This document shows positions 45-27,688 of a stretch of 28,153 nucleotides of DNA, piece after piece. This DNA comes from a virus. A program made the translations under genes and the position numbers. The first letter of the stretch is position 1. The number at the start of each line of letters is the position of its first letter. The notes under the pieces are model-generated. The model was given only the letters and a program-made list of their open reading frames with translations, searched no databases and was not told the DNA's origin. The stretch covers positions 1-28,153 of IMG/VR virus record IMGVR_UViG_3300028392_001475. One strand, written 5' to 3'.

Positions 45-1542
45 TTTTCAATTTTATTTTATATATCTTAAAAGGAAATTTCTCATCTGAATAAATTTTT
101 GATCTTTCCACAAAATGTTTCAGTGTGAAATTCATATGATTTTTATGACGCAAATCATCAGCAATGTCATAAAGAGTCGCTTGATTTTTGCCTTCACCCT
201 TTCTCAATCCTCTTCCGATTGATTGTAAGTTTCTAACTCTACTTTTCGATGGAGATGCGAATATAATATTATGCAGATTGCGAATATTAATTCCAGTAGA
301 AAAAGTGCCAAAAGAAGCGACAACAATAGCATCATTTTCTATCTCCATAATTCTTCTAATCTCTTCTCTATCTGCGGTGTCTGTTCCACCGTGAACAAAA
401 AATACTTTCCTATTACCAATTTTCTCAGTATTCTTTATCATATTATACAGTATTTTACCATGTTTATCAACCATTTGGTACAAAATAAGTGTATTTTGTT
501 TTAGACTTACCGCAAGATTTTTTATGAATTTGTTTCTTTCTTCATTGAGAATCAAGTATTCTATTTCTTCCTGATAAGATTTTTTGGACATACTCTCACA
601 TATTGTGTCACTGTGTTTTAGAACCAAACATTTAATATTGAAATCTGCAAGTTGTCCTTTATCGATAAGTTCTTTTGTTGTGGTAACTTTTTCAATAGGT
701 CCAAAAAGGCCTTCGAGTACCAATTTGTGTGTCTTGGTTCCGTCCAATGTTCCCGTCAAACCAATTCTATATTTGGTATTAACACAAGATGTTAGAATGT
801 GGACCAGAGATGTTGCCTTGAAAAGATGTGCTTCGTCACCAATGACATAATCAAATTGGTGAAAATATTCTTCTGGCATTTTAAAAATGGATTGCCATGT
901 TGAGATAGTCAAAGATTTGTCAGCATTTTTTGACATTCCTTGATAAATCCTGTGTACATGATCTTGTACATTGAAATCTGTTTCTGATGCATAGTCAGCA
1001 AAATCCGAATATAATTGTTCAACAAGTGATGTTGTGGGAACAACAATGAGACCTTTTAGATTTTGATAATCAAGGAATTGTCTGAACAAGAGATATATGA
1101 TGAGTGATTTACCTGACGCAGTAGGAGACAACAGTAGTGTTCTTCTATTTTGTAATGCAGTAATAAATGCTTTTACTTGATGTTCTCTTATACCAATTGG
1201 TTTACCCAAAGAGTGCAAGTTTAGACTTTCTGCAAACTTTTCGCAATGATATGTACTGAATTCATCTTGAATATCCGGACGTGTTGAATCATATTCGTAA
1301 ATATAATCACGTTCCTCGCAAAACAATTCAATGTATTTCAATAATCCCAGATAAATTAAATTTGACTGTAGATTCAAAAGACGTATTTTTCCGTCCCATA
1401 TTTTATTACGAAATGCCGGAGTAAATTGATGACCGGGAACAAAGAATGTAAAATACTCTGATAGTTCTCTCAGAATATATTTTTCTGCAAGTATTTTGGC
1501 ATAAACTTCGTTATGTTTCGATATCGTTATATCACACGCCAT
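37..1542 (-). CDS. uvsW: UvsW-type RNA-DNA and DNA helicase
   Basis: A 501-residue superfamily 2 helicase, the same size as T4 UvsW, which unwinds R-loops and branched recombination intermediates and helps switch replication from origin-dependent to recombination-dependent. The N-terminal accessory domain contains the FRNKIWDGKIRLL stretch (about 44-56), matching T4 FRYGNWDGRIRLL. Visible motifs are Walker A SPTASGKS (139-146), DEAH box (236-239), a GLTGTLDG motif III region and motif VI QSIGRGLRKG near the C-terminus. The start overlaps the uvsY stop by 11 bases, so the two genes are probably co-translated from the sigma70-like promoter upstream of uvsY. All motifs look intact. Confidence 0.95.
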   Translation of the reverse strand: MACDITISKHNEVYAKILAEKYILRELSEYFTFFVPGHQFTPAFRNKIWDGKIRLLNLQSNLIYLGLLKYIELFCEERDYIYEYDSTRPDIQDEFSTYHCEKFAESLNLHSLGKPIGIREHQVKAFITALQNRRTLLLSPTASGKSLIIYLLFRQFLDYQNLKGLIVVPTTSLVEQLYSDFADYASETDFNVQDHVHRIYQGMSKNADKSLTISTWQSIFKMPEEYFHQFDYVIGDEAHLFKATSLVHILTSCVNTKYRIGLTGTLDGTKTHKLVLEGLFGPIEKVTTTKELIDKGQLADFNIKCLVLKHSDTICESMSKKSYQEEIEYLILNEERNKFIKNLAVSLKQNTLILYQMVDKHGKILYNMIKNTEKIGNRKVFFVHGGTDTADREEIRRIMEIENDAIVVASFGTFSTGINIRNLHNIIFASPSKSRVRNLQSIGRGLRKGEGKNQATLYDIADDLRHKNHMNFTLKHFVERSKIYSDEKFPFKIYKIKLKNG

Positions 1543-1966
1543 TGATGAATTTTTCCCAATTGATATAGTCTCTAAGCTGATAAGTTCTGCTTTTTAGCTC
1601 AGAAAGGATTGCTTCAACGACAGAAATAATTTCGTCGTGTACAATCTTTTTTCTGAGAAGTGCAATTAAGTCATCATCACTTTCAAGATATAAATTGATG
1701 TCTGATTTTAATACAAATGGAAATGGTTCCCAACCAAATTCGTCCAATTCCTCTTTTGATAATTTACCCGTGTAATATTCCCATTTGGACTTTTTCAATT
1801 TTAAATAATCAAAGTGTGCTTTTCTCGAAGAAAGTTTACTTCTAGTCAACGCATTCAGATATTTACTGTGTAAAATTGGGATACGAAGTAATTCGCGAGA
1901 CGGTTCAGTTGAATCTATGACCGCATCTTTTTCCCAATTTTCTAAAACTTTTTCTAAAGAATCCAT
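1532..1966 (-). CDS. uvsY: UvsY recombination mediator
   Basis: A 144-residue protein (T4 UvsY is 137). In T4, UvsY loads the UvsX recombinase on single-stranded DNA coated with gp32. The alignment to T4 is weak but continuous: an N-terminal KDAVIDSTEP-like stretch matching T4 KDVFIDST, then a conserved HSKYLNALTRSKL (T4 YSKWLNKHSS), a DYLKLKKSKWEYYTGK segment (T4 RLDYYSGR), and a C-terminal helix with LKSRTYQLRDYI (T4 IKSRGFAIKHIQ). It sits directly before uvsW, as in T4-like genomes. No strong Shine-Dalgarno precedes the ATG. A TTGACT/TATAAT promoter lies just upstream. Confidence 0.88.
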   Translation of the reverse strand: MDSLEKVLENWEKDAVIDSTEPSRELLRIPILHSKYLNALTRSKLSSRKAHFDYLKLKKSKWEYYTGKLSKEELDEFGWEPFPFVLKSDINLYLESDDDLIALLRKKIVHDEIISVVEAILSELKSRTYQLRDYINWEKFINGV

Positions 1967-9128: not shown

Positions 9129-9136
9129 TATTTATT
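9129..9136 (-). promoter_or_regulatory. Candidate late promoter AATAAATA (gene 19)
   Basis: AATAAATA on the minus strand, formed partly by the gene 18 stop codon, 22 bases before the gene 19 ATG. The geometry resembles that of the exact TATAAATA boxes before genes 3 and 67. Confidence 0.45.
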
Positions 9137-10823
9137 AAGCAGCACCAACGATAGTCTTGAAATCAACACCAGTACCAACCGCAACAAAATTCAACTGAAT
9201 ATAGTTGATTGAACGTGCTGGTTTGATGTAGATATCACCAACAAACTGATTACTATCAATGACTTGTCCAGTATTATTTGTTCCATCACAAACTACCTTA
9301 AAGTCTGTAATGCCACGGCGGCCCTGAACATCTCTCAAGAATGGAGTTACTAATGCAACAAATTGTGCTCTTGTGAACTCGTCATTCAATTCAAACAGAG
9401 AATATTGTGAAGCTTTCGCAATTGCCTTTTCAAGTACAATGAACAGTCTGCGAACATTAATTCTATCGAATGCTGACGGTTTGGATTGCAGCGTTTTGTC
9501 ACCGAACAGTACAATTCCCTGACCAGTGAAAGAAACAACAGGATTAACACCCAAAGCATATAAACCGTCTCTAAATGTTTTAGATGGATTCCAAGATAAC
9601 TTGATTGCGTTCTTGATTCCGCCACGATTAAATCCTGCGGGTGAATACCATGGATCTTGTGCTGTGTCTGTTGATGCACAAAGACCAGCAATATCTGAAT
9701 TTAAAGGAACCCAGCGATATACGTTGTTATAAACATCGAATTGATATTTCCATCCGGAATCCGCAACAACATAAGATGATGATCTTGCAAGAGATCCTAA
9801 CCAAGATTGTATTCCTGCATATTCAATACCCAAATTATTGACAACCGTTTCATATGGCGGAGAAATGAATGCTACGCAATCTTTTCTCACATTTACAATA
9901 TTGTCAATAACATGTTGTTGTGTTGGTGTGCTAACTGGACCAGTAATCAACAAAGAAATGTCATAAGTTTCTTTGTTTTCAAAAATCGACCAACCATCAT
10001 TGATGTCTGAATTTGATGGTAACGAATCTGAACCTCCAGTCAAATTGAATTTAATCAACTTTGGTGAAATTGGATCAAAAATGGTTCCCGAAGCAGATTG
10101 TCCCCAAGTAGTACTTGTATTGGAATAGTCAACAGAATCAACAGCGTAGATATATCTAGAACTATTGAAAATGACTTGTTTGTAGTAGTTTGAAGAACCG
10201 CTGTTCAAATTTACTGCATCTACAGCTTTCGATACGAACGGAAAGGTTTCTAGAACAGTATTCTTTATTCCAGTAAAGAGTCCACCAGCATCTGTAACGA
10301 CGATATGAATTTCATCATTTGCACCACCTAGATTTGCAACGTAATCTGAAGTGCCTGGCGCGGAAGTGAAAATGTCTGATCGTGCAGTATTACCTGTATC
10401 GATAACCGTAACAGAAAGTGAATTTCCTAATGCACCAGGATAACGAGATATGAATGCGCCATATGTATTCATATTGTTTGTGGACAAAAGAGTATCTCCG
10501 AATACACTACTGTTCTTAATTTGTACAGCGCCTGTGGTGTTTGAAGATGCATTCAGAGACGATGTGCCGACAGCACGAATAACACTCAGATTATTTCCGT
10601 ATGCAAGGAAGTTTGCAGCTGAAAAGAAAGATGTTGCGGTATTGGAATCTGGTGTTCCAAAAGTTTTAGATAAAGTAATCTCACTGTCAACCAGAATGAC
10701 TTGATTTGCTGGACCCCACTTGAATGCTCCAACGTATGCTCCAGCAGTAGTTAAAACCGAAGGTACGACCGTAGTTAGGTCGATTTCGGATACATTAATG
10801 CCGGGAGAAATTTGATATCCCAT
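9135..10823 (-). CDS. 18: Contractile tail sheath protein gp18
   Basis: A 562-residue sheath subunit (T4 gp18 is 659). Strong family signatures: MGYQISPGINVSEIDLTTVVP and TTAGAYVGAFKWGPANQ at the N-terminus, and the conserved C-terminal core containing FVIVLEKAIAKASQYSLFELNDEFTRAQF-like text, PFLRDVQGRRGITDFKVVCD, and GDIYIKPARSINYIQLNFVAV, which forms the inner domain contacting the tube. The middle, about residues 90-300, is the variable surface domain and is shorter than in T4. Ribosome binding site AAGGAG precedes the ATG. The spacer to gene 17 is 72 bases. Confidence 0.97.
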   Translation of the reverse strand: MGYQISPGINVSEIDLTTVVPSVLTTAGAYVGAFKWGPANQVILVDSEITLSKTFGTPDSNTATSFFSAANFLAYGNNLSVIRAVGTSSLNASSNTTGAVQIKNSSVFGDTLLSTNNMNTYGAFISRYPGALGNSLSVTVIDTGNTARSDIFTSAPGTSDYVANLGGANDEIHIVVTDAGGLFTGIKNTVLETFPFVSKAVDAVNLNSGSSNYYKQVIFNSSRYIYAVDSVDYSNTSTTWGQSASGTIFDPISPKLIKFNLTGGSDSLPSNSDINDGWSIFENKETYDISLLITGPVSTPTQQHVIDNIVNVRKDCVAFISPPYETVVNNLGIEYAGIQSWLGSLARSSSYVVADSGWKYQFDVYNNVYRWVPLNSDIAGLCASTDTAQDPWYSPAGFNRGGIKNAIKLSWNPSKTFRDGLYALGVNPVVSFTGQGIVLFGDKTLQSKPSAFDRINVRRLFIVLEKAIAKASQYSLFELNDEFTRAQFVALVTPFLRDVQGRRGITDFKVVCDGTNNTGQVIDSNQFVGDIYIKPARSINYIQLNFVAVGTGVDFKTIVGAA

Positions 10824-10895: not shown

Positions 10896-12110
10896 TTACA
10901 TTCTAAGCAAACGATTTCCGTCAAACTGCCAATGTGAATATTTATTTTCATCATTCAATGAAGAAACATGCCAAACATCTCCATCCATCACTTCATATTG
11001 ACCATCTTCTAATCCATTATCTATAATAGGAGCAGGCATCATATCTTCATCATGTTGATTCATACTCTCTAACTGAATTTGCTTTCTTAGATCGTGGGTT
11101 ACTATTTCTCTGAAATATTTCTGAGTTGTTGCCCATGCAAAAATTACCATAGACATAACTAAGTCATCATTTGCACCTTCTTCCGCAGAAAACGAGTTCT
11201 TATTTGCAACGAACGTTGTCAACTCGGAATAAGTATCAAAATCATTTACTATGAGTTTGTCACCCTCAATCAATGTCTTCAAATTGGAACATCCAATTCT
11301 CTTTACTTGAGGAGACATTTTTAAACCCAACTGAACACCTCTAGCAAATCCTGCTGATAACTGTTGGGGTTTCTTGTTGCCGGTAAACACTTTCATTAGA
11401 TTTTCATATTCTAATTCATGATGCAGTTGATCAGCAACCTGTGGATTATTATTTATTTCAACAATAATGTATGCATCATTATATAGTCTTGCCGCATTGT
11501 ATATAATGGTGGGAAACAACATTAATGGTATCGTGGGACTTTTGTATGTTGCGACTTGTCGATATGGTGTTTCAGAGATATCGAATACATTGAATGCGGA
11601 AGAATCCAAATTTCTGCCTTCCGATGGATCCACAGTGATGCAATATAGATGACTTTTTTTAATATCGTCTCCATTTTCTGTCACAGGATATTCATAAATT
11701 TTGAGATCGTCGTGTTCAGATATGTGATCTCGATAATGCATCATTTGTAGTTTATGACCAGATATCAGAGTATTGGAACTACCCAAGAAATGGGTATTGT
11801 GTGAGACAACACCATTGGAATAATAACTTGAGTGATTTTCTACACCAACCGGATCAAATACTTCAAATTCACCGACAACATAAGATAGATTGGTTACCTT
11901 TTTTCCGGATACATCCTCGTGTATATCCAAATCTCTTGCAAAAACATAACCAGTTTTTGTCAATACCGCATGGTTGGCTGAACATTCCAGTAATGTGCCA
12001 TCATCAAAATTGATAGTATATAATCTATCTACTATTTTTTTCTGCACACCATAAAAGTTTTCATAACCAGTTGGTGTTTTTATTTGGAATCTATTATTCT
12101 TCTTGAACAT
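10896..12110 (-). CDS. 17 (C-terminal fragment): Large terminase gp17, C-terminal half fused to a C-intein
   Basis: A 404-residue protein. Residues 1-105 are a C-intein: block B-like SANH (44-47), block F FDPVGVENHSSYY, and block G NGVVSHN ending in the catalytic His104-Asn105. Residues 106-404 are the C-extein, beginning with the splicing nucleophile Thr106, then HFLGSSNTLISG, and carrying the RNase H-like packaging nuclease: Asp161 in ITVDPSEG, Glu218 in IIVEINNNP, and Asp315/316 in GANDDLV, matching T4 gp17 Asp401, Glu458, Asp542. The gene overlaps the end of the HNH gene by 17 bases and has no clear ribosome binding site, so translation is probably coupled to it. Without splicing the half lacks the ATPase motor. 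Alternative reading as a pseudogene is unlikely because all motifs are intact. Confidence 0.94.
   Translation of the reverse strand: MFKKNNRFQIKTPTGYENFYGVQKKIVDRLYTINFDDGTLLECSANHAVLTKTGYVFARDLDIHEDVSGKKVTNLSYVVGEFEVFDPVGVENHSSYYSNGVVSHNTHFLGSSNTLISGHKLQMMHYRDHISEHDDLKIYEYPVTENGDDIKKSHLYCITVDPSEGRNLDSSAFNVFDISETPYRQVATYKSPTIPLMLFPTIIYNAARLYNDAYIIVEINNNPQVADQLHHELEYENLMKVFTGNKKPQQLSAGFARGVQLGLKMSPQVKRIGCSNLKTLIEGDKLIVNDFDTYSELTTFVANKNSFSAEEGANDDLVMSMVIFAWATTQKYFREIVTHDLRKQIQLESMNQHDEDMMPAPIIDNGLEDGQYEVMDGDVWHVSSLNDENKYSHWQFDGNRLLRM
11796..12110 (-). other. C-intein of an atypically split terminase intein (105 residues)
   Basis: Starts MFKKNNRFQIKTPTGYENF and ends YSNGVVSHN before Thr. From memory it resembles the C-part of the AceL-TerL split intein (104 residues, starting MFRTNTN and ending ITNGVVSHN) found in an Antarctic lake metagenome. 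It carries most of the Hint fold, the opposite of the usual large-N/small-C split. Confidence 0.9.
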
Positions 12111-12675
12111 GTTTTTTCATTAGTGCAATAACTGCTTGTACTGTCACATTGTATTCCTTTGATATTTTTTCACAGAACGCTCTTTTGTATGTGAATAATT
12201 TACCATTTCTTTGGACTTTATTAATTCTATCATCATCAATATCAATTCTATTGTTGTATTGATTTAGTATTGTTTGAGTGATATTGTCGTTTAATGGTCC
12301 AACATTTCTATTGCTGGAACCCATACTCCGTCTTGCATCTTCAGATAAATTCAATTTGTATCCAGATTTTCCTTTATTCCAAGGTATTGTTCCTTTTTTC
12401 ACACCACCAACTCCTGGTCTTTTTATACCAGTTTGTATTTGTGATAAATGCTCGGGTGGCAATTCCATTCTTTTTGCGATCATAACACAAGCACCATAAT
12501 CACCTTGTTCATAATGAATATCATAGTGTTCTTTTATTGATACACACAAAAGATTTTCAATATGGTTATTATTTCTGTCACCATCTTTGTGATGAATTTC
12601 ATAAGAACGACCATCTTCATCCATCGGAATGGGGCCGTAATAATGTTCCCATATTTTTCTATATGATTTTGACAT
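12094..12675 (-). CDS. Free-standing HNH homing endonuclease with NUMOD3
   Basis: A 193-residue protein lying between the two halves of the terminase gene. The HNH nuclease motif is YEIHHKDGDRNNNHIENL followed by EH (His28/His29, Asn-rich turn, His50). A NUMOD3-type DNA-binding module follows (GTIPWNKGKSG, about 96-105), and the last 50 residues look like a helix-turn-helix (KISKEYNVTVQAVIALMKK). Such enzymes cut intein- or intron-less alleles at a specific site so that repair copies the element. Here the presumed target is an intact gene 17. It has its own TATAAATA promoter in the 48-base spacer but only a weak ribosome binding site. Its 3' end overlaps the C-intein start by 17 bases. Confidence 0.92.
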   Translation of the reverse strand: MSKSYRKIWEHYYGPIPMDEDGRSYEIHHKDGDRNNNHIENLLCVSIKEHYDIHYEQGDYGACVMIAKRMELPPEHLSQIQTGIKRPGVGGVKKGTIPWNKGKSGYKLNLSEDARRSMGSSNRNVGPLNDNITQTILNQYNNRIDIDDDRINKVQRNGKLFTYKRAFCEKISKEYNVTVQAVIALMKKHVQEE

Positions 12676-12698
12676 GGTTGTTTTCTGGATATTTTTAT

Positions 12699-12706
12699 TA
12701 TTTATA
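12699..12706 (-). promoter_or_regulatory. T4-type late promoter TATAAATA (HNH gene / terminase C-half)
   Basis: Exact TATAAATA on the minus strand in the short spacer between the stop of the N-half of gene 17 and the HNH ATG (24 bases before it). It would transcribe the endonuclease and the C-half separately from the N-half. Confidence 0.65.
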
Positions 12707-12723
12707 AACCAAAAAACAATGTC

Positions 12724-13620
12724 TCAAATAAAATCATATAAGTCTCTCATTCTTATTTTAAATATTTCATTTGTAACAACATCTTTTATTTCAACAAGTG
12801 TGTTACCATCAACACATTCGAATTCCTGGGCAAACTGCCTTTCGGAAGTATTGCGAATTGTTTCTTCTTTCCAGTCTTCATCTCTACCTGGAACATGTGA
12901 CCAGTGAATTTCGAATGGAACATAATTGCTTCTTTTCTCTACAGCATCTTGCCATAGTTTATAGAATAGATTCATACCGTTTGGTGTTGAAACGATAATG
13001 ATCTTTGTTTTCTTACCGGATGAGATAACGGGATAAACAGCAGTAAAGAATTCGTTTGCAATGTTGTTTGGTACGAATGCAAATTCGTCCAAGAATACTA
13101 GATTGAATGAACCACCACGAATTGCGGAAGATGATGTGGATGATGCAATAATCTTTGATTTGTTCTCAAGTACAACCGTGCCTTTGTTCCACGTATCAAC
13201 ACCTTGTTGTAACCAGTCTGGTAAATTTTCATATGCCAATTGATACTTACCTAAGATATCTCTTGCATTTTGTCCTTTGTTGGCCAAAATGGCAATATTC
13301 TGTTCATTATGAAAAAGTGACATCCACAACATATATGCTACAGTTGTTGTGGTTTTACCAACCTGTCTTGGGCACTTGGTGATAACAAAACGATTATCTT
13401 TGAACATGGATAACATGCTCTTTTGGAAATCCCACATATCAAATTTGATCAGACCTTCATCAACATTGATGATGTGAATATAATTCGTTGCAAAATATAC
13501 AGGATCAGCTGCACATTTTTTATATTCTTCTATCTGTTGTTTGGAGTAATTTGTATTTACTCCAGTTCGTTTCAGTAGTGGATTGTCTCTATATGAATCT
13601 TGTGGACGCAATTCTGCCAT
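12724..13620 (-). CDS. 17 (N-terminal fragment): Large terminase gp17, N-terminal ATPase half fused to an N-intein
   Basis: A 298-residue protein. Residues 1-268 are the packaging motor ATPase: Walker A PRQVGKTT (84-91), Walker B LVFLDEF (174-180), and coupling motif STPNG (211-215), all as in T4 gp17, ending in RNTSERQFAQEFE. T4-like proteins continue here with CEFLGSSNTLI; instead residues 269-298 are an N-intein starting Cys269-VDGNTLVEI and ending in a stop. Trans-splicing with the downstream C-half would give a 567-residue terminase (T4: 610). The start overlaps the gene 16 stop by one base (TAATG). The break lies at the hinge between ATPase and nuclease domains, so each half is a foldable domain. 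Confidence 0.95.
   Translation of the reverse strand: MAELRPQDSYRDNPLLKRTGVNTNYSKQQIEEYKKCAADPVYFATNYIHIINVDEGLIKFDMWDFQKSMLSMFKDNRFVITKCPRQVGKTTTTVAYMLWMSLFHNEQNIAILANKGQNARDILGKYQLAYENLPDWLQQGVDTWNKGTVVLENKSKIIASSTSSSAIRGGSFNLVFLDEFAFVPNNIANEFFTAVYPVISSGKKTKIIIVSTPNGMNLFYKLWQDAVEKRSNYVPFEIHWSHVPGRDEDWKEETIRNTSERQFAQEFECVDGNTLVEIKDVVTNEIFKIRMRDLYDFI
12727..12816 (-). other. N-intein of the split terminase intein (30 residues)
   Basis: Begins with the nucleophilic Cys (codon 12816-12814), block A pattern C-V-D-G-N-T-L-V, and ends at a natural stop codon after DLYDFI. At 30 residues it is far shorter than usual N-inteins (about 90-100). The remembered AceL-TerL N-part (25 residues, starting CVYGDTMVE and containing EDLY) is similar. 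Confidence 0.9.
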
Positions 13621-14057
13621 TACGAATCATCCTTTAACAATTTATTCAAGTCAGCCGCAGTGCCCACAAATATGGCTTTGTCGATTTTAGTATCGCCTGC
13701 TTTCTGTTTATTATTGTCCATATCCCGCATTTGTTTCTGTATGGTTAGAAGTTCTTTATTAGCATCTACCATATTTTTTAACAGTCCAGCGTATACTTCA
13801 AATGCTCGAGGATGTTGTCCTTCTCTGGCGATTTGGAGAAGTTCTTCCATTGCATCTCTGCCATTGTCAATTAAATCTTGGAGATTAGTTCGCGATTGTT
13901 CGTACGCATCAACCAGATCTCCTTTTAGATCTGGTTCAAGGTCATTCGATCTGGGCGCAGGAGTTAATGTGACTTGTTTATCTTTATCAATGTTGGGATT
14001 ACCTTGGAAAGGTGTCACATCAAAAATTTCTTCTATACTTTTTTCAAATTTTGACAT
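13620..14057 (-). CDS. 16: Small terminase subunit gp16
   Basis: A 145-residue protein (T4 gp16 is 164) that recognises DNA and stimulates the gp17 ATPase. Typical features: an N-terminal stretch SIEEIFDVTP, a long central coiled-coil region with LVDAYEQSRTNLQDLIDNGRDAMEELLQIAR, the conserved HPRAFEVYAGLLKNMVDANKELL, and the C-terminal KAIFVGTAADLNKLLK, which matches the gp17-contacting tail of T4-like gp16 proteins. Coupled to gene 17 by a one-base overlap. Only a weak ribosome binding site is visible. Confidence 0.94.
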   Translation of the reverse strand: MSKFEKSIEEIFDVTPFQGNPNIDKDKQVTLTPAPRSNDLEPDLKGDLVDAYEQSRTNLQDLIDNGRDAMEELLQIAREGQHPRAFEVYAGLLKNMVDANKELLTIQKQMRDMDNNKQKAGDTKIDKAIFVGTAADLNKLLKDDS

Positions 14058-14071
14058 AATAATCCATTTTA

Positions 14072-15634
14072 TTAATAACTAGGATACCATTTACCAGTTG
14101 CATTGTCCCATGTCATGATCATTGCTTTACTGACAACTGCGGTGGATGCCAATGCAATATTACCCGCCGTGTTTGTTGTCCACGTGGCAGTTGGTATGAG
14201 TGTTATTTGTCCACCACCAACAGCAATACGAACTGGTGGAGTGATATTTGCAATTGGTGCAGCAGTACCGGAAATGAAAGTAATCATTCTGGTTGGTGCA
14301 ATGTTACCCGTAGCTGCAATGGTTGGTGCAGCAGCATTGGTTGCAATAACACCAGTAACAGTGATATCGCCAGAAAAATAGTTGTTTGCTGATGTATTGG
14401 ATGAATAGAAAGATCCTGTTGTCAATGTTCCAGTGGCAGCATTAAAACTTAGTGATGAGTTGGCATATGTTGCATTATTACCTGAAACACCAAGAGACAT
14501 ACCTGGATAATATGTTCCGGTCACTGCATTGTTTACAATACCATAAGATGTTACATTTGCAACTGGTGATGCACCATCAATAGATGTGATACCGGTTAAC
14601 ACTAAACCCGCAGATGCACGATTCAATGTGATTGCAGTTGTACCAATATATAGAGTTGAATTGCCCAGTATTGGACTTGGTATAGTACCAAAAGACAAAT
14701 AAGAGGCATTCGATGCATTAGTGTTCGCTTGATTTACAGCACCAAATAGATAAACTGTATTGGCTTCGACTGTACCAAGTCGCGTATTCTGAGTTGTGTT
14801 TACATTAGAAACATATGAGATTTGACCATCAGTATAAGATTTCAGTTGGGTATTGGCTGAAGTAATAGCGCCATCAGTATATGATTTTAACTGCGTATTA
14901 GCTGATGTTACAATACCATCAGTATAAGATTTCAGTTGGGTATTGGCTGAAGTAATAACACCATCAGTGTATGCTTTTAACTGTGTATTTGCTAATCCGA
15001 TAGCACCATTAGTGTACGTCTTCAGCTGAGTATTGGCTAAAGCAATAGCACCATCTGTATATGATTTTAACTGCGTATTAGCTGATGTTACAATACCATC
15101 AGTATAAGATTTCAGTTGGGTATTGGCTGAAGTAATAGCGCCATCAGTATATGATTTTAACTGGGAATTAGATGAAATGACATAATTAAATATATCAATT
15201 GTACCACCAACAATAACATTTGATGCATAAACATTGCCCGCAACACCAATACCACCAGAAACTACTAATGCGCCGGTTGATATTGAAGTTGATGGTGCCG
15301 TACTCTGTACAAGTAGTTCTGTTGATGAAGGAAATATAACATTACCTGTACCGTCAGGATCAATAGTTATGTCTTGATTTGAACCGAGAACAGTCGTTAT
15401 AACATTGGAATACAAATTAGAACCCGCAACAACATTTCCGTATGCAGTTAGATTCAGTGTCAGGATTTCATTGTTTGTGTTGTATGTTGTCCTGAAAGCA
15501 TTATAAATTGTACCCAATGGAAGTGCATAAGAAGTATTTGTTCCCGTCTCATCACTCGCCAACAACACAATTTTAGGATTGTTTGCGGACACGGAATCCA
15601 ATACTGGCAACTGTGAAAGTGTTATTCCTGACAT
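14072..15634 (-). CDS. Repeat-rich fibre-like virion protein
   Basis: A 520-residue protein between genes 15 and 16, absent from that position in T4. Residues about 125-145 contain STGALVVSGGIGVAGNVYAS, a stretch I recall from structural proteins of aquatic T4-like phages. Residues about 158-277 are eight 15-residue repeats of the type QLKSYTDGAITSANT, with hydrophobic spacing that suggests a trimeric coiled-coil or beta-stalk. The C-terminal half is Ala/Thr/Gly-rich and beta-like, ending in WDNATGKWYPSY, which looks like a tail-fibre tip. There are no Cys residues and no enzyme motif. AGGAA precedes the ATG. A fibre or whisker on the neck or head is the likely role; that is inference from position. 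Confidence 0.78.
   Translation of the reverse strand: MSGITLSQLPVLDSVSANNPKIVLLASDETGTNTSYALPLGTIYNAFRTTYNTNNEILTLNLTAYGNVVAGSNLYSNVITTVLGSNQDITIDPDGTGNVIFPSSTELLVQSTAPSTSISTGALVVSGGIGVAGNVYASNVIVGGTIDIFNYVISSNSQLKSYTDGAITSANTQLKSYTDGIVTSANTQLKSYTDGAIALANTQLKTYTNGAIGLANTQLKAYTDGVITSANTQLKSYTDGIVTSANTQLKSYTDGAITSANTQLKSYTDGQISYVSNVNTTQNTRLGTVEANTVYLFGAVNQANTNASNASYLSFGTIPSPILGNSTLYIGTTAITLNRASAGLVLTGITSIDGASPVANVTSYGIVNNAVTGTYYPGMSLGVSGNNATYANSSLSFNAATGTLTTGSFYSSNTSANNYFSGDITVTGVIATNAAAPTIAATGNIAPTRMITFISGTAAPIANITPPVRIAVGGGQITLIPTATWTTNTAGNIALASTAVVSKAMIMTWDNATGKWYPSY
14804..15163 (-). repeat. Eight tandem 45-bp coding repeats
   Basis: Each unit encodes QLKSYTDG plus a variable seven-residue linker. 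Copies are not equally related: 14877-14957 and 15057-15137 are identical over 81 bases, and 14826-14893 matches a block 270 bases away. This points to recent duplication of multi-unit blocks. Confidence 0.9.
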
Positions 15635-18373: not shown

Positions 18374-19207
18374 ATGATAGTTGTAACTGGTGCATCCGGA
18401 TTTATTGGTTCCAATTTAGTTAAGGAACTTGTGAACAGAGGAGAGAAAAACATTATGTGTGTGGACTATGTAATGCGTCCCGAATATTTTAAAGATTTAC
18501 CTGTGATATTCACACCATCCGAAGAATTCTATAAACATATAGAAAAATATGAAAATATCGAGTCTATATTTCATGAAGGTGCAATATCTTCAACGACAGA
18601 AACCGATACAAAGAAATTATTCGAGAGAAATGTTCAGTGTACATGGAATTTAATTTATTATTGTAGAGATAATAATATACCATTACAATATGCATCTTCA
18701 GCCTCAGTGTATGGTAATCCATCAATTGAAGAATGGCACAATCCAAATAAATCATTAAATCCATTAAATCATTATGCAAAATCAAAGCAACAGATTGATT
18801 ATGTTGCTCATTTGGTGATTAATAGTAAAAGACCACCAAAATTACTACAAGGTATGAGATACTTTAATGTTTATGGTACCAATGAAGACCATAAGGGAGA
18901 CCAGGCTAGTCCCTATTCTAAATTTGCAAAACAACTTAAAGAAATCGGTAAAATAAAACTATTTGAAGGATCAAAAGAATTCTATAGAGATTTTATTTCT
19001 GTTGAAGAGTTAATTGACAAAAAGTTAAAACTATGGTATAATCAGCCAAATGGCATTTATGATATTGGTACTTCTAAACCAAAATCATTTTACGAAGTTG
19101 CTTTAGAAGTTGGTGGTTCTTCGGATGTTATTGAATGGGTTCCAATGCCAAGTAACCTTGTGGAACATTACCAAAAATATTCTTGTGCTGTAGTTCAGGG
19201 TGTATAG
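18374..19207 (+). CDS. hldD: ADP-L-glycero-D-manno-heptose 6-epimerase (HldD/RfaD-like), C-terminally short
   Basis: A 277-residue short-chain dehydrogenase-type epimerase that would convert ADP-D-glycero- to ADP-L-glycero-manno-heptose, a lipopolysaccharide core precursor. Signatures specific to HldD: TGASGFIGSNL (NAD binding), HEGAISSTTETD, YASSASVYG, the catalytic YAKSK (YxxxK), and RYFNVYGTNEDHKGDQAS with the conserved Lys. It stops at HYQKYSCAVVQGV, where E. coli HldD (310 residues) continues for about 30 more residues, and its end overlaps the convergent gene by 13 bases. Catalytic residues are all present. It is the only plus-strand gene here. GTGAG serves as a weak ribosome binding site. 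Confidence 0.9.
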   Translation: MIVVTGASGFIGSNLVKELVNRGEKNIMCVDYVMRPEYFKDLPVIFTPSEEFYKHIEKYENIESIFHEGAISSTTETDTKKLFERNVQCTWNLIYYCRDNNIPLQYASSASVYGNPSIEEWHNPNKSLNPLNHYAKSKQQIDYVAHLVINSKRPPKLLQGMRYFNVYGTNEDHKGDQASPYSKFAKQLKEIGKIKLFEGSKEFYRDFISVEELIDKKLKLWYNQPNGIYDIGTSKPKSFYEVALEVGGSSDVIEWVPMPSNLVEHYQKYSCAVVQGV

Positions 19208-22813: not shown

Positions 22814-23510
22814 TATTAAATTTTTCCCAATCAATACCTGGAGACATTAGATTATCTACATGAGTTGTTAATCCAGGCATTGGACTCCATAATGGAAATC
22901 CTTGTCTGTGTAGCTCAATAAAAAGACCTATATCCCACATTCCAAAATTTAAAATTTCATTTGATATTTTTTTATAGATATCATTTCTTGTTAACCAAGA
23001 ATGTGTGGTAGATTCAGTTGTTCTCCAATGTAAATTGGTTTGACTATCAAATACTATTTTCAAAGGATATTCCACATCCGGTGGGTTAACCGGAATATAT
23101 CTATAAAGATGGTCATATCCGGTAACCAAACCAAATGTCTTTACCGCTTTTGATAATTTTAAGACAGAATCTACTTGGTGTAAATAATCATCTTCAATAA
23201 AATAGATATCACTTTCTGTGTATGAACATAGATGGTTTGCGATTTCAACAGATTTAAATAAACTTTGAGTTTGATTTGTGAGATTAATTTTAATGATTTC
23301 TGATTTTACTTTACAGTTGTTGATGTAATCAAATAATGGTCCTTCTGGCCCATCATGTAAAAATATTAATTTATCAACATTATTTCCAGCATGTATTACC
23401 GAAGTTAAGAAAGATTTTAAACAGTTTAGTTTATTGAACCAACCAGGTCTACAATCTTTAAAATTACCATCAGTTTCGTTTTCACATACTCTATAAATTA
23501 TATTAATCAT
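22803..23510 (-). CDS. GT-A-type glycosyltransferase-like protein
   Basis: A 235-residue protein with an N-terminal MINIIYRVCE strand, LNCLKSFLTSVI helix, LIFLHDGPEGPL, and FIEDDYL (105-110), a DXD-like metal/nucleotide-sugar motif. The C-terminal part (TTHSWLTRNDIYKKI, FGMWDIGLFIELHRQG) is conserved-looking and ends with PMPGLTTHVDNLMSPG. It is related to the first half of the GT-methyltransferase fusion in this operon. The ATG at 23510 forms an ATGA overlap with the sulfotransferase stop; a TTG six bases upstream is also open. The donor and acceptor are unknown. Confidence 0.72.
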   Translation of the reverse strand: MINIIYRVCENETDGNFKDCRPGWFNKLNCLKSFLTSVIHAGNNVDKLIFLHDGPEGPLFDYINNCKVKSEIIKINLTNQTQSLFKSVEIANHLCSYTESDIYFIEDDYLHQVDSVLKLSKAVKTFGLVTGYDHLYRYIPVNPPDVEYPLKIVFDSQTNLHWRTTESTTHSWLTRNDIYKKISNEILNFGMWDIGLFIELHRQGFPLWSPMPGLTTHVDNLMSPGIDWEKFNNEI

Positions 23511-24280
23511 CGCCAAACTTCAAGGTTTGAAAACTCATTCCAAAGGTCGGGAGGAAGAATTGGATCTCTTTCAATATATTCTATTTTTCTTCTGATTGCA
23601 TGTAGACCATTAATTCCTGCATCCATATCATATTCATCATATGTACATTCTACATTATCAAAGTCATGTTGGTAATATGGTTCATCAATAAAATTATATA
23701 GTGCCTTCATTGTTTGTTCGGGATACTTTGCGAGTTGTTCGTATTCCAAAAGCATAATCATGTGTTTCTGTGGGCCAGTGATTGCTTCTTTGAGTGCATC
23801 ATAAGCAAATCTTACCGTGTGTCCTGGTGACATGGAGGCGTATGCTCTGGTGTAAACAGACTGTGCTTCATCATCAGAATACATTCTGGATAGTTGAAAT
23901 GGATTCTTTCTGAATAGAACTTCAAATGAATCTAGAACCCACCGAATATCTCTGACACAACAAATAATCTTGGAATCAGGATGTGTTTTTTCTAGAATAG
24001 GAAGAAGTGCGGTCCAACCACGATTGGTGTTGAAACAAACTTCTTGTGGAATATCCGAATGATATGTTGAGATTAGATTTTGGATTAGTTCAAATCTTTT
24101 ATTTTCTGGACACTGAAGATGATATCCAGGACCAGCATGAGATTCAGTAATGATTGATCTTACAAATCTAGCAAGAGGATTTGAAATATTAGAATAGAAG
24201 TTTGGGTTTTGATTCAATATTGAAGTCAAAAGGGTTGATCCGGATCTCGGAAGTCCGGATACAAAGTGATAGGATTTCAT
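23507..24280 (-). CDS. Sulfotransferase
   Basis: A 257-residue cytosolic-type sulfotransferase that would transfer sulfate from PAPS to a hydroxyl group of a sugar or other acceptor. The 5'-phosphosulfate loop is GLPRSGSTLL (9-18); the 3'-phosphate-binding region is CVRDIRWVLDSF (about 107-118). The rest (LLEYEQLAKYPEQTMKALYNFI, then EPYYQHDF) matches the family's C-terminal part. Similar genes occur in aquatic myoviruses. First gene of the tight operon; it follows RCC1-A by 25 bases. Its weak ribosome binding site (GGTGA) lies inside an inverted repeat. Confidence 0.88.
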   Translation of the reverse strand: MKSYHFVSGLPRSGSTLLTSILNQNPNFYSNISNPLARFVRSIITESHAGPGYHLQCPENKRFELIQNLISTYHSDIPQEVCFNTNRGWTALLPILEKTHPDSKIICCVRDIRWVLDSFEVLFRKNPFQLSRMYSDDEAQSVYTRAYASMSPGHTVRFAYDALKEAITGPQKHMIMLLEYEQLAKYPEQTMKALYNFIDEPYYQHDFDNVECTYDEYDMDAGINGLHAIRRKIEYIERDPILPPDLWNEFSNLEVWR

Positions 24281-24283
24281 AAT

Positions 24284-24325
24284 TCACCATAGTAAAAGAA
24301 AATATTTAGTATGTTCCTATGGTGA
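24284..24325 (-). promoter_or_regulatory. Inverted repeat covering the sulfotransferase ribosome binding site
   Basis: TCACCATAG (24284-24292) and CTATGGTGA (24317-24325) form a perfect 9-bp stem around a 24-base loop that contains the RCC1-A stop codon. On the mRNA the 3' arm includes GGTGA three bases before the sulfotransferase ATG, so folding could limit its translation. Confidence 0.45.
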
Positions 24326-25487
24326 GGTCTGTGATTGCTGCTGTATGAATATATCCACATGCTACCTGTTTCCAATTGGTACCACCAGCTACTGTTGTTA
24401 CTGGACTGGATTTATTAACAGTGGTATTATCTCCTAATTGACCAGAAATATTATATCCACATGACCATAAAGTACCATCTGTTTTAATAGCTGCTGTATG
24501 AGCATATCCACCTGCTACCTGTTTCCAATTGGTACCACCAGCAACAGTTGTTACTGGACTGGATTTACTAACAGTGGTATTATCTCCTAATCCACCATAA
24601 AAATTATATCCCCATGTCCATAAGGTACCATCTGTTTTAATGGCTGCTGTATGATAAATAACACCCCCTACCTGTTTCCAATTGGTACCACCAGCTACTG
24701 TTGTTACTGGACTAGATTTATCAACAGTGGTATTATCTCCTAATTGACCATAACCATTATAACCCCATGTCCATAAAGTACCATCTGTTTTAATAGCTGC
24801 TGTATGATAAGTACCACCTGATACTTGTTTCCAATTGGTACCACCAGCTACCGTTGTTACTGGACTAGATTTATTAACAGTGGTATTATCTCCCAATTGA
24901 CCTAAACCAGTATATCCCCATGACCATAGAGTACCATCTGTTTTAATTGCTACTGTATGTCTATAACCACCTGCTACCTGTTTCCAATTGGTACCTCCAG
25001 CTACTGTTGTTACTGGACTAGATTTATTAACAGAGGTATTATCTCCTAATTGACCATATTTATTATATCCCCATGTCCATAAAGTACCATCAGTCTTAAT
25101 AACTGCTGTATGGTACTGACCACATGCCACTTGTTTCCAATTGGTACCACCAGTTATAGTGGTTACTGGAGAGGATTTAGTGACAGTGGTATTATCTCCT
25201 AATTGACCAAAATTATTATATCCCCATGTCCATAAAGTACCATCTGTTTTAATAGCTGCTGTACGATAATATCCACCTGATACTTGTTTCCAATTGGTAC
25301 CACCAGCTACTGTAGTTATTGGACTGGATTTATCAACAGTGGTATTATCTCCTAATTGACCCCTAGTACTATTATATCCCCATGTCCACAATGACCCATC
25401 ACTAAAATACTCTCTTCTAATGAGAATATCATCAATGTCAACTTGATAGTTACCGATAGACTGATTTACTTTAAAGTTTGTGGTCAT
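24306..25487 (-). CDS. RCC1-repeat seven-bladed propeller protein A
   Basis: A 393-residue protein made almost entirely of RCC1 repeats of about 51 residues with the core G(T/S)LW(T/S)WGYNxxGQLGDNTTVxKSSPVTTVAGGTNWKQV followed by xxHTAAIKTD. Seven units complete a propeller. The short N-terminus (VDIDDILIRREYF) is probably an attachment segment; the RCC1-B protein has a similar NVYVTKEYI. In aquatic phages RCC1 proteins are usually read as tail-associated adhesins. Framework residues are nearly invariant, whereas the two residues before G-Q-L-G and those before HTAAI vary between units. AGAGGAA before the ATG is a ribosome binding site provided by a 39-bp duplicated segment. Confidence 0.88.
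   Translation of the reverse strand: MTTNFKVNQSIGNYQVDIDDILIRREYFSDGSLWTWGYNSTRGQLGDNTTVDKSSPITTVAGGTNWKQVSGGYYRTAAIKTDGTLWTWGYNNFGQLGDNTTVTKSSPVTTITGGTNWKQVACGQYHTAVIKTDGTLWTWGYNKYGQLGDNTSVNKSSPVTTVAGGTNWKQVAGGYRHTVAIKTDGTLWSWGYTGLGQLGDNTTVNKSSPVTTVAGGTNWKQVSGGTYHTAAIKTDGTLWTWGYNGYGQLGDNTTVDKSSPVTTVAGGTNWKQVGGVIYHTAAIKTDGTLWTWGYNFYGGLGDNTTVSKSSPVTTVAGGTNWKQVAGGYAHTAAIKTDGTLWSCGYNISGQLGDNTTVNKSSPVTTVAGGTNWKQVACGYIHTAAITDLTIGTY
24345..25365 (-). repeat. About 153-bp RCC1 tandem repeats, array A
   Basis: Seven tandem units, period about 153 bases. Each carries a nearly identical block containing CTGTTTCCAATTGGTACCAC (plus-strand reading) and shares long near-identical runs with array B about 2.2 kb away. 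Confidence 0.9.
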
Positions 25488-26497: not shown

Positions 26498-27688
26498 TTA
26501 CCAACCTTCGGATTCGGAGATTGCTGATGTATGATTACCACATGCTACCTGTTTCCAATTGGTACCACCACCAGCAGTGGTTACTGGACTGGATTTATTA
26601 ACAGTAGTATTGTCTCCTAATTGACCCCTAGTATTATATCCACAAGACCATAAAGTTCCATCAGTTTTGATAGCTGCTGTATGAACATATGCACCTGCTA
26701 CCTGTTTCCAATTAGTACCACCTGTTACTGTGGTTACTGGACTGGATTTATGAACAGTGGTATTATCTCCTAATTGACCATAAGTATTATATCCCCATGT
26801 CCATAAGGTACCATCAGTCTTAATAGCTGATGTATGTAAACCACATGCTACCTGTTTCCAATTGGTACCACCAGCTACTGTTGTTACTGGACTGGATTTA
26901 TTAACAGTAGTATTAACTCCTAATTGGCCATTAGGATTATAACCCCATGTCCATAAAGTACCATCTGTTTTAATTGCTGCTGTGTGACCAAAACCACATG
27001 CTACCTGTTTCCAATTGGTACCACCAGCTACTGTTGTTATTGGAGATGATCTATTGATCGTGGTTCCGTCACCAAGTTGGCCAAAAAAATTATATCCACA
27101 TGACCATAAGGTACCATCTGTTTTAATAGCTGCTGTATATTGATTACCACCTGCTACCTGTTTCCAATTAGTACCACCACCAGCAGTGGTTACTGGACTG
27201 GATTTAGTGACTTTGGTACCATCTCCTAATTGACCAATAGTATTATATCCCCATGACCATAAGGTACCATCTGTTTTGATAGCTACTGTATGGAAACCAC
27301 CACATGCTACCTGTTTCCAATTGGTACCACCAGCAACAGTCGTTACAGGAGAAGATTTATTAGCAGTAGTATTATCTCCTAATTGGGCATAAGTATTCTG
27401 TCCCCATGTCCATAAAGTTCCATCAGTTTTAATGGCTGCTGTATGATAAACAACACATGCTACCTGTTTCCAATTGGTACCACCTGCTATAGTGGTTACT
27501 GGACTGGATTTATGAACAGTGGTATTATCTCCTAATGCACCATATAGATTATATCCACAAGTCCATAATTGAGGAGTTTGTAACTGGGTCACCAAATCTG
27601 GATACCAATCCATAATATATTCTTTTGTCACATAGACATTAGATAAATCAGTTCCGGTTGAATCCTTATAATTGGTATTAGCTGCCAT
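26498..27688 (-). CDS. RCC1-repeat seven-bladed propeller protein B
   Basis: A 396-residue paralogue of RCC1-A with seven units. The N-terminal about 38 residues (LSNVYVTKEYIMDWYPDLV) are a likely attachment segment. Variable positions differ from A: the loop before GQLG reads NL, NT, NT, NF, NP, NT, NT plus a second variable residue, and the loop before HTAAI also changes and is sometimes one residue shorter. One unit has GVNTTV instead of GDNTTV. Several units have CGYN in place of WGYN. It starts two bases upstream of the fibre gene's stop region (spacer minimal) and is followed by the cupin-like gene. A tail-tip adhesin is the best guess. Confidence 0.87.
   Translation of the reverse strand: MAANTNYKDSTGTDLSNVYVTKEYIMDWYPDLVTQLQTPQLWTCGYNLYGALGDNTTVHKSSPVTTIAGGTNWKQVACVVYHTAAIKTDGTLWTWGQNTYAQLGDNTTANKSSPVTTVAGGTNWKQVACGGFHTVAIKTDGTLWSWGYNTIGQLGDGTKVTKSSPVTTAGGGTNWKQVAGGNQYTAAIKTDGTLWSCGYNFFGQLGDGTTINRSSPITTVAGGTNWKQVACGFGHTAAIKTDGTLWTWGYNPNGQLGVNTTVNKSSPVTTVAGGTNWKQVACGLHTSAIKTDGTLWTWGYNTYGQLGDNTTVHKSSPVTTVTGGTNWKQVAGAYVHTAAIKTDGTLWSCGYNTRGQLGDNTTVNKSSPVTTAGGGTNWKQVACGNHTSAISESEGW
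26525..27560 (-). repeat. About 150-bp RCC1 tandem repeats, array B
   Basis: Seven tandem units of about 147-156 bases in direct orientation with array A. Shared near-identical blocks would allow homologous recombination between arrays, which would delete the 2.2 kb between them and make a chimeric propeller. Confidence 0.9.

Follow-up and report, generated by a model that had tools for sequence, protein, structure and literature searches.

The window studied here is a virus record of 28,153 bases taken at its full length (IMG/VR record IMGVR_UViG_3300028392_001475, positions 1-28,153), and it carries a T4-like large terminase gene (terL) broken by an atypically split intein, with a homing endonuclease gene lying between the two intein parts. 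The best explanation of the whole, which we hold with high though not complete confidence, is a mobile split intein of the AceL/GOS-TerL type with its homing endonuclease. The two terminase halves would be translated separately, the 30-residue N-intein (IntN) would dock into the 105-residue C-intein (IntC) and so complete a Hint fold, and Cys1, Thr+1 and the terminal Asn would ligate a terminase of 567 residues, as the conserved residues and the solved Cat intein suggest. An HNH endonuclease with an I-TevIII-like head would cut terL alleles that lack the insertion, and repair would copy the whole cassette (IntN, endonuclease, IntC) into the cut allele; the movement itself is shown by comparing sequences. 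A T4 late promoter of its own and a hairpin at its start probably reserve the endonuclease for late infection, the endonuclease may repress its own expression through a box that resembles the homing site, and translational coupling probably accounts for expression of the nuclease half, whose ORF overlaps that of the endonuclease.

Inteins of the AceL/GOS-TerL kind are known; what is new is the cassette with an I-TevIII-type endonuclease, the putative control region like that of T4 introns and the evidence of mobility. Split inteins are widely used tools whose natural origin, movement and persistence are little documented, and the loci compared here provide a natural series that comprises empty alleles, split inteins with an HNH endonuclease, with a GIY-YIG endonuclease and with a deleted endonuclease. 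They also provide about 20 new inteins with a short N-fragment, mostly Cys1/Thr+1, for protein labelling.

A large terminase gene in three open reading frames

The minus strand of the window encodes T4-like head, tail and packaging genes, and the broken terL is placed among them between the terminase small subunit gene (13620-14057) and the tail sheath gene (9135-10823). An earlier note on this DNA had described terL as broken at 10896-13620 with an endonuclease between the halves, and this is where three minus-strand open reading frames (ORFs) were found, at 12724-13620 (298 residues), 12094-12675 (193 residues) and 10896-12110 (404 residues), with matches to Terminase_6N, HNH_3 and Terminase_6C respectively. 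In the order of a gp17-like terL they encode the ATPase half with the N-intein, the HNH endonuclease, and the C-intein with the nuclease half (Table 1). The translations also agree with that note in that the ATPase half ends in the N-intein and a stop and the nuclease half starts with 105 residues running to NGVVSHN before a Thr; a 30 + 105 split with the short part on the N-terminal side is thus borne out by separate ORFs.

The N-extein, in which Walker A (CPRQVGKT) and Walker B (VFLDE) are both intact, ends in QEFE and is followed by CVDGNTLVEIKDVVTNEIFKIRMRDLYDFI (30 residues) and TGA. The C-extein begins with Thr+1, its start reading THFLGSS, and THFLGSSNTLISG stands directly after GVVSHN of the C-intein. 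When joined, the exteins match T4 gp17 (3ezk) over 495 residues and across both domains (E 4.9e-98), gp17 K166 and D255 being in register with the N-extein alignment, and the predicted spliced terminase of 268 + 299 = 567 residues has the size (about 567) that had been forecast. The break falls after T4 gp17 residue 353, in what we take to be the region linking the ATPase and nuclease domains. As the endonuclease stop and the C-intein start overlap by 1-17 nt in all tabulated endonuclease-bearing loci, translation of the nuclease half is probably coupled to that of the endonuclease gene.

Table 1. Features of the broken terL locus and its control region in the window
Feature	Position	Strand	Details
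Terminase small subunit gene	13620..14057	-	phrog_445 E 9e-31
N-extein, TerL (gp17-like) ATPase half, 268 aa	12817..13620	-	Terminase_6N E 1.5e-24
N-intein, 30 aa, Cys1	12727..12816	-	stop TGA at 12724-12726
Predicted RNA hairpin over endonuclease start codon	12671..12723	-	fold -12.6 kcal/mol, z -3.2
Homing-site-like box ACATTGTTTTTTGGT	12708..12722	-	fixed offset +1 after IntN stop; upstream of late promoter
Putative T4-type late promoter TATAAATA	12699..12706	-	23 nt before endonuclease start
HNH homing endonuclease gene, 193 aa	12094..12675	-	HNH_3 E 7.6e-13
Endonuclease parts			head aa 1-82, I-TevIII-like; tail aa 83-193, homologous to same-site GIY-YIG endonuclease tails
Endonuclease stop/C-intein start overlap, 17 nt	12094..12110	-	overlap 1-17 nt in all tabulated endonuclease-bearing loci
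C-intein, 105 aa (MFKKN...NGVVSHN)	11796..12110	-	block B CSANH, end SHN; CatC 6dsl E 5e-12
C-extein, TerL RNase H-like nuclease half, 299 aa	10896..11795	-	Terminase_6C E 4e-10

An intein of the AceL/GOS-TerL type

The nearest match of the C-intein is CatC, an engineered consensus of TerL inteins (6dsl chain B, E 5e-12), and a profile of the joined inteins retrieves 6dsl first (E 1.6e-17), followed by gp41-1, Spl DnaX and VidaL. The start of the window's C-intein aligns to MFK.N of CatC, so that the position of the break matches that of Cat. An AlphaFold2 model of the C-intein (pLDDT 90) has 6dsl as its best match in the PDB (TM 0.86, with 34% identity in the structural alignment) and many inteins next, which supports a Hint fold for the modelled part; the N-intein searched alone against the PDB gave no match, the query being too short. 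The Pfam family Intein_splicing was matched by 12 of 12 joined inteins, the window's match lying below the curated cut-off.

Since the C-intein is nearest to Cat in both sequence and fold, these data support a further atypically split intein of the AceL/GOS-TerL type, and the proposal of the earlier note that this is another AceL-TerL-like member agrees with the sequence, the predicted fold, the split position and the host gene. Published splits are 25/104 for AceL-TerL, 37/115 for GOS-TerL and 30/104 for Cat (PMC11766414). The window's intein shares with AceL-TerL and Cat-TerL the TerL host, a very short IntN, a long IntC and a C-intein starting MFK.N, and differs from both in its 30/105 split and in the residue at +1, AceL-TerL being Cys1/Cys+1, Cat-TerL likewise having Cys+1 and the window's intein being Cys1/Thr+1. 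GOS-TerL has the same host and the same kind of split, but is Ser1/Cys+1, and both IntN and IntC are shorter in the window. That Thr stands at +1 here, against Cys in AceL-, GOS- and Cat-TerL, is a point that we add to the earlier note.

All 12 joined inteins of the alignment have Cys1, G4, T6, a block-B His and a terminal His-Asn, and the block-B His and the His-Asn end are kept in 21 C-inteins. The catalytic residues of the window are C1, H77, H134, N135 and T+1, residue +1 being Thr or Cys across loci. The ratio of nonsynonymous to synonymous substitution (dN/dS) of IntN and IntC is mostly 0.03-0.2.

Among cultured phages, split TerL inteins are also known from HY03, kaaroe and Vibrio phage VP-1, where a second gene or a nuclease part lies near the break and the C-inteins are about 30% identical to that of the window. 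HY03 and kaaroe differ in the site, which is at Walker B (DE|C...HN|C), and in having another nuclease; VP-1 is split at the corresponding EYD|C site, but its GIY-YIG stretch lies within the N-half ORF. TerL inteins of cultured phages (L010-L014) occur elsewhere in the protein, as contiguous inteins at Walker A and Walker B (vB_VmeM-32) and as split inteins at Walker B (HY03, and kaaroe, whose N-half ORF includes the nuclease). TerL is in this sense a hot spot for inteins, which occupy three or more sites in it.

Empty alleles and a family of broken loci

The nearest relatives of the C-extein in IMG/VR (L060-L064, 78-87% amino acid identity) have a terL without interruption. Its open frame has 564-572 codons and contains QEFE|THFLGSSNTLI, a junction that is, residue for residue, the predicted spliced junction of the window. 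Mosig, Melnitz and P-TIM40 read EFE|CEFLGS at this point, the reading of cultured Pelagibacter and Methylophilales phages and cyanophages. Insertion of the intein followed by splicing would leave no scar. The earlier note had further proposed that the intein is active in trans and that the phage depends on splicing; we infer both, as they are favoured by the conserved catalytic residues, the low dN/dS and these exact empty alleles.

Searches with the C-intein collected 46 loci, to which L086 was added later, and of these about 23 are distinct loci with enough sequence to be read. The same arrangement of terL is found in these approximately 23 viral loci, from many samples, a recurrence that argues against chance. 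One might suspect, as the source is a 28-kb metagenome virus record, that the split is an artefact of assembly or sequencing or belongs to a decaying pseudogene, which we consider very improbable given that order and split are the same in all these loci and that all parts are under purifying selection.

Across the loci the N-intein has 30-34 residues and always a stop codon at its end. The middle gene encodes an HNH endonuclease in 18 loci and a GIY-YIG endonuclease in 3 (L006, L040, L086), and is missing from 2 (L003, L016). In L016 the last 19 endonuclease codons remain just after the N-intein stop (748-812), and in our reading its HNH endonuclease gene was lost through deletion while the intein is still split. 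In L003, 59 nt separate the N-intein stop from the C-intein start; an unrelated HNH endonuclease gene lies in this locus between the terminase small and large subunit genes (872-1648, minus strand). With no endonuclease between the halves in these two loci, the split persists without its endonuclease.

These loci also bear on the view that an endonuclease merely split terL, the halves cooperating without covalent joining and the intein parts being relics. The ATPase and the nuclease are separate folded domains, and PMC10448857 describes a precedent in phage Aeh1, whose ribonucleotide reductase gene nrdA was split by the homing endonuclease gene mobE into two peptides with function kept. We nevertheless regard it as unlikely, for the splicing residues do not vary among about 20 diverged loci, the dN/dS of IntN and IntC is low, and the intein parts are intact in L003 and L016 even though no endonuclease lies between the halves.

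Movement of the cassette

The mobility, the I-TevIII-like head and the region of promoter, box and hairpin go beyond the earlier note. In close pairs of loci the synonymous divergence of the cassette is far below that of the exteins: third-position differences number 0/328 in the cassette versus 108/565 in the exteins for L023/L025 (p 8e-24), 0/331 versus 114/570 for L036/L038 (p 3e-25), 10/329 versus 106/534 for L021/L022 (p 4e-14) and 47/326 versus 84/180 for L028/L039 (p 1e-14). L023 and L025 are identical throughout the 1,029 nt. The first mismatch lies 10 nt outside the splice junction on the left and 9 nt outside that on the right, and such sharp borders at both junctions argue against chance joins made in assembly. 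In L036/L038 the identity on the right side extends for 581 nt, as co-conversion would give.

Four separate groups of loci have a cassette history distinct from that of the exteins. The comparison carries the signature of IntN, endonuclease and IntC homing together, and the jumps between phages appear to be recent and to involve the cassette as one precise unit moving between diverged terminases. The endonuclease would be expected to cut the empty terL allele and to spare the occupied one.

An endonuclease with an I-TevIII-like head

Residues 4-82 of the endonuclease are 58% identical over 79 residues to the nrdB-intron endonuclease of T-even phages (I-TevIII), and the protein matches phrog_12324 (E 9e-29). 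The C-terminal part of I-TevIII gave no match to the tail of the window endonuclease, and no record covered 80% of the query. The middle gene had been labelled HNH/NUMOD3; the first half of this label stands, and the NUMOD3 motif found no match in the window endonuclease at E 10 and was weak, below the cut-off, in L006 and L030. Where measurable, the dN/dS of the endonuclease is about 0.14-0.27, indicating purifying selection.

In L006, L040 and L086 the head in front of a homologous tail is of the GIY-YIG type. The HNH-headed protein of L030 (1269-1877) and the GIY-YIG protein of L086 (2067-2687) have tails that are 74% identical over 122 residues. HNH and GIY-YIG heads thus appear to have been exchanged on a tail tied to the terL site, and the tail presumably binds this site. 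With I-TevIII the window endonuclease shares the HNH head; it differs in lying within a split intein and not in a group I intron, in its C-terminal part and in its presumed target, terL. The endonucleases of the so-called fractured genes are said to be of a Vsr-like family, different from the HNH_3/I-TevIII-like or GIY-YIG proteins found here. The likeness lies in an endonuclease gene placed between split intein halves in environmental phage-like DNA (Dassa et al. 2009).

An I-TevIII-like head could also suggest a self-splicing intron that removes the interruption at the RNA level, the open frames being only apparent: T4-like phages have introns that harbour similar endonucleases, and in phage ICP1 the terL transcript undergoes RNA splicing (PMC10448857). 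This we find scarcely credible, as the flanks of the insertion are a translated intein with a Hint fold and each half has its own stop or start. An Rfam search of the window matched no family and no intron, and the RNA intron was rejected on this result.

A possible control region like that of T4 intron endonucleases

TATAAATA, the sequence of the T4 late promoter, is present downstream of the N-intein stop and ahead of the endonuclease in 19 of the 20 loci that carry an endonuclease and also in L086, that is, in 20 of 21 loci of shared ancestry. Four further copies are present in the window (2547, 5194, 5664 and 6728, minus), all on the coding strand; three of the four lie 8-35 nt upstream of gene starts. 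Together these positions suggest T4-type late transcription in the window phage. In the window alone TATAAATA shows no excess (5 against 3.2 in shuffles), so that its identification as a promoter rests on position and recurrence.

The adjacent box resembles the first five C-extein codons. In the window it outranks every other position of the locus except the extein when scored with a position weight matrix (PWM); the best match lies at the same offset in 19 of 22 loci, and in endonuclease-bearing loci it ranks in the top 0.02% (median) of positions. The box is more conserved than the neighbouring sequence. A comparison of 12-mers locus by locus is not significant for most loci, whereas the fixed offset and the PWM rank are.

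The box is also part of the 5' arm of the predicted hairpin, which has a z of -3.7 in its 120-nt context; a transcript started at the late promoter is predicted to be unstructured (z 0). Several other loci share with the window a pairing of the box with sequence before and at the endonuclease start, which leaves the promoter in the loop. As modelled, the hairpin would bury the start codon of the endonuclease in read-through mRNA only and not in the late-promoter transcript. A late promoter, a hairpin at the ribosome-binding site and an operator resembling the homing site are combined in the control system of T4 intron endonucleases, and by this analogy the window endonuclease may be controlled in a similar manner. 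Split inteins would in this way be linked to T4 intron endonuclease control, and head swapping and autorepression become testable.

We give the box about an even chance of being an operator, because part of it may be kept for the hairpin alone. The competing view leaves the AceL/GOS-type intein in place and touches the regulation only: the box would be an arm of the hairpin at the ribosome-binding site or a remnant of the insertion event, with no role as an autorepression operator. The pairing of the box with the ribosome-binding region in several loci and its lack of co-variation with its own extein speak for this; its retention in L002 and L021, which lack the hairpin or have a weak one, its single fixed offset and high rank, and its absence from 2 of 2 GIY-YIG loci examined speak for the operator, and we place the competing view slightly below even. 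The most complete form of our interpretation is a split intein that homes actively in natural phage populations. HNH and GIY-YIG heads would be interchangeable on a single site-specific tail, and the endonuclease would repress its own late promoter by means of a homing-site copy lying inside the broken essential gene; this whole picture we advance tentatively, as a little less probable than its contrary.

Several points weigh against this interpretation. Splicing, cleavage and repression are all deduced from sequence, and the contigs compared are metagenome assemblies. The Hint model covers IntC alone and not the joined chain of 135 residues, and the structure search with the endonuclease model returned noise only, I-HmuI being a weak match at rank 22. 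The counts for promoter and box are not independent, because the loci share ancestry, and part of the box is explicable as a hairpin arm. Two stronger propositions were rejected: that each locus has in its box a copy of its own extein, own pairs being no better than mixed ones (permutation p 0.4), and that the hairpin is universal, as it occurs in many loci but is weak in L002, L021, L031 and L045.

Other genes of the window

A 520-residue protein with tandem repeats of the NTQLKSYTDG type, without a match in Pfam or PHROG, is encoded at 14072-15634, between the terminase small subunit and sheath-stabiliser genes. Two long proteins with RCC1 repeats of a similar type are encoded at 24306-25487 and 26498-27688, and near them are genes for a sulfotransferase (23507-24280), methyltransferases and a nucleotide-sugar epimerase (18374-19207, plus strand).

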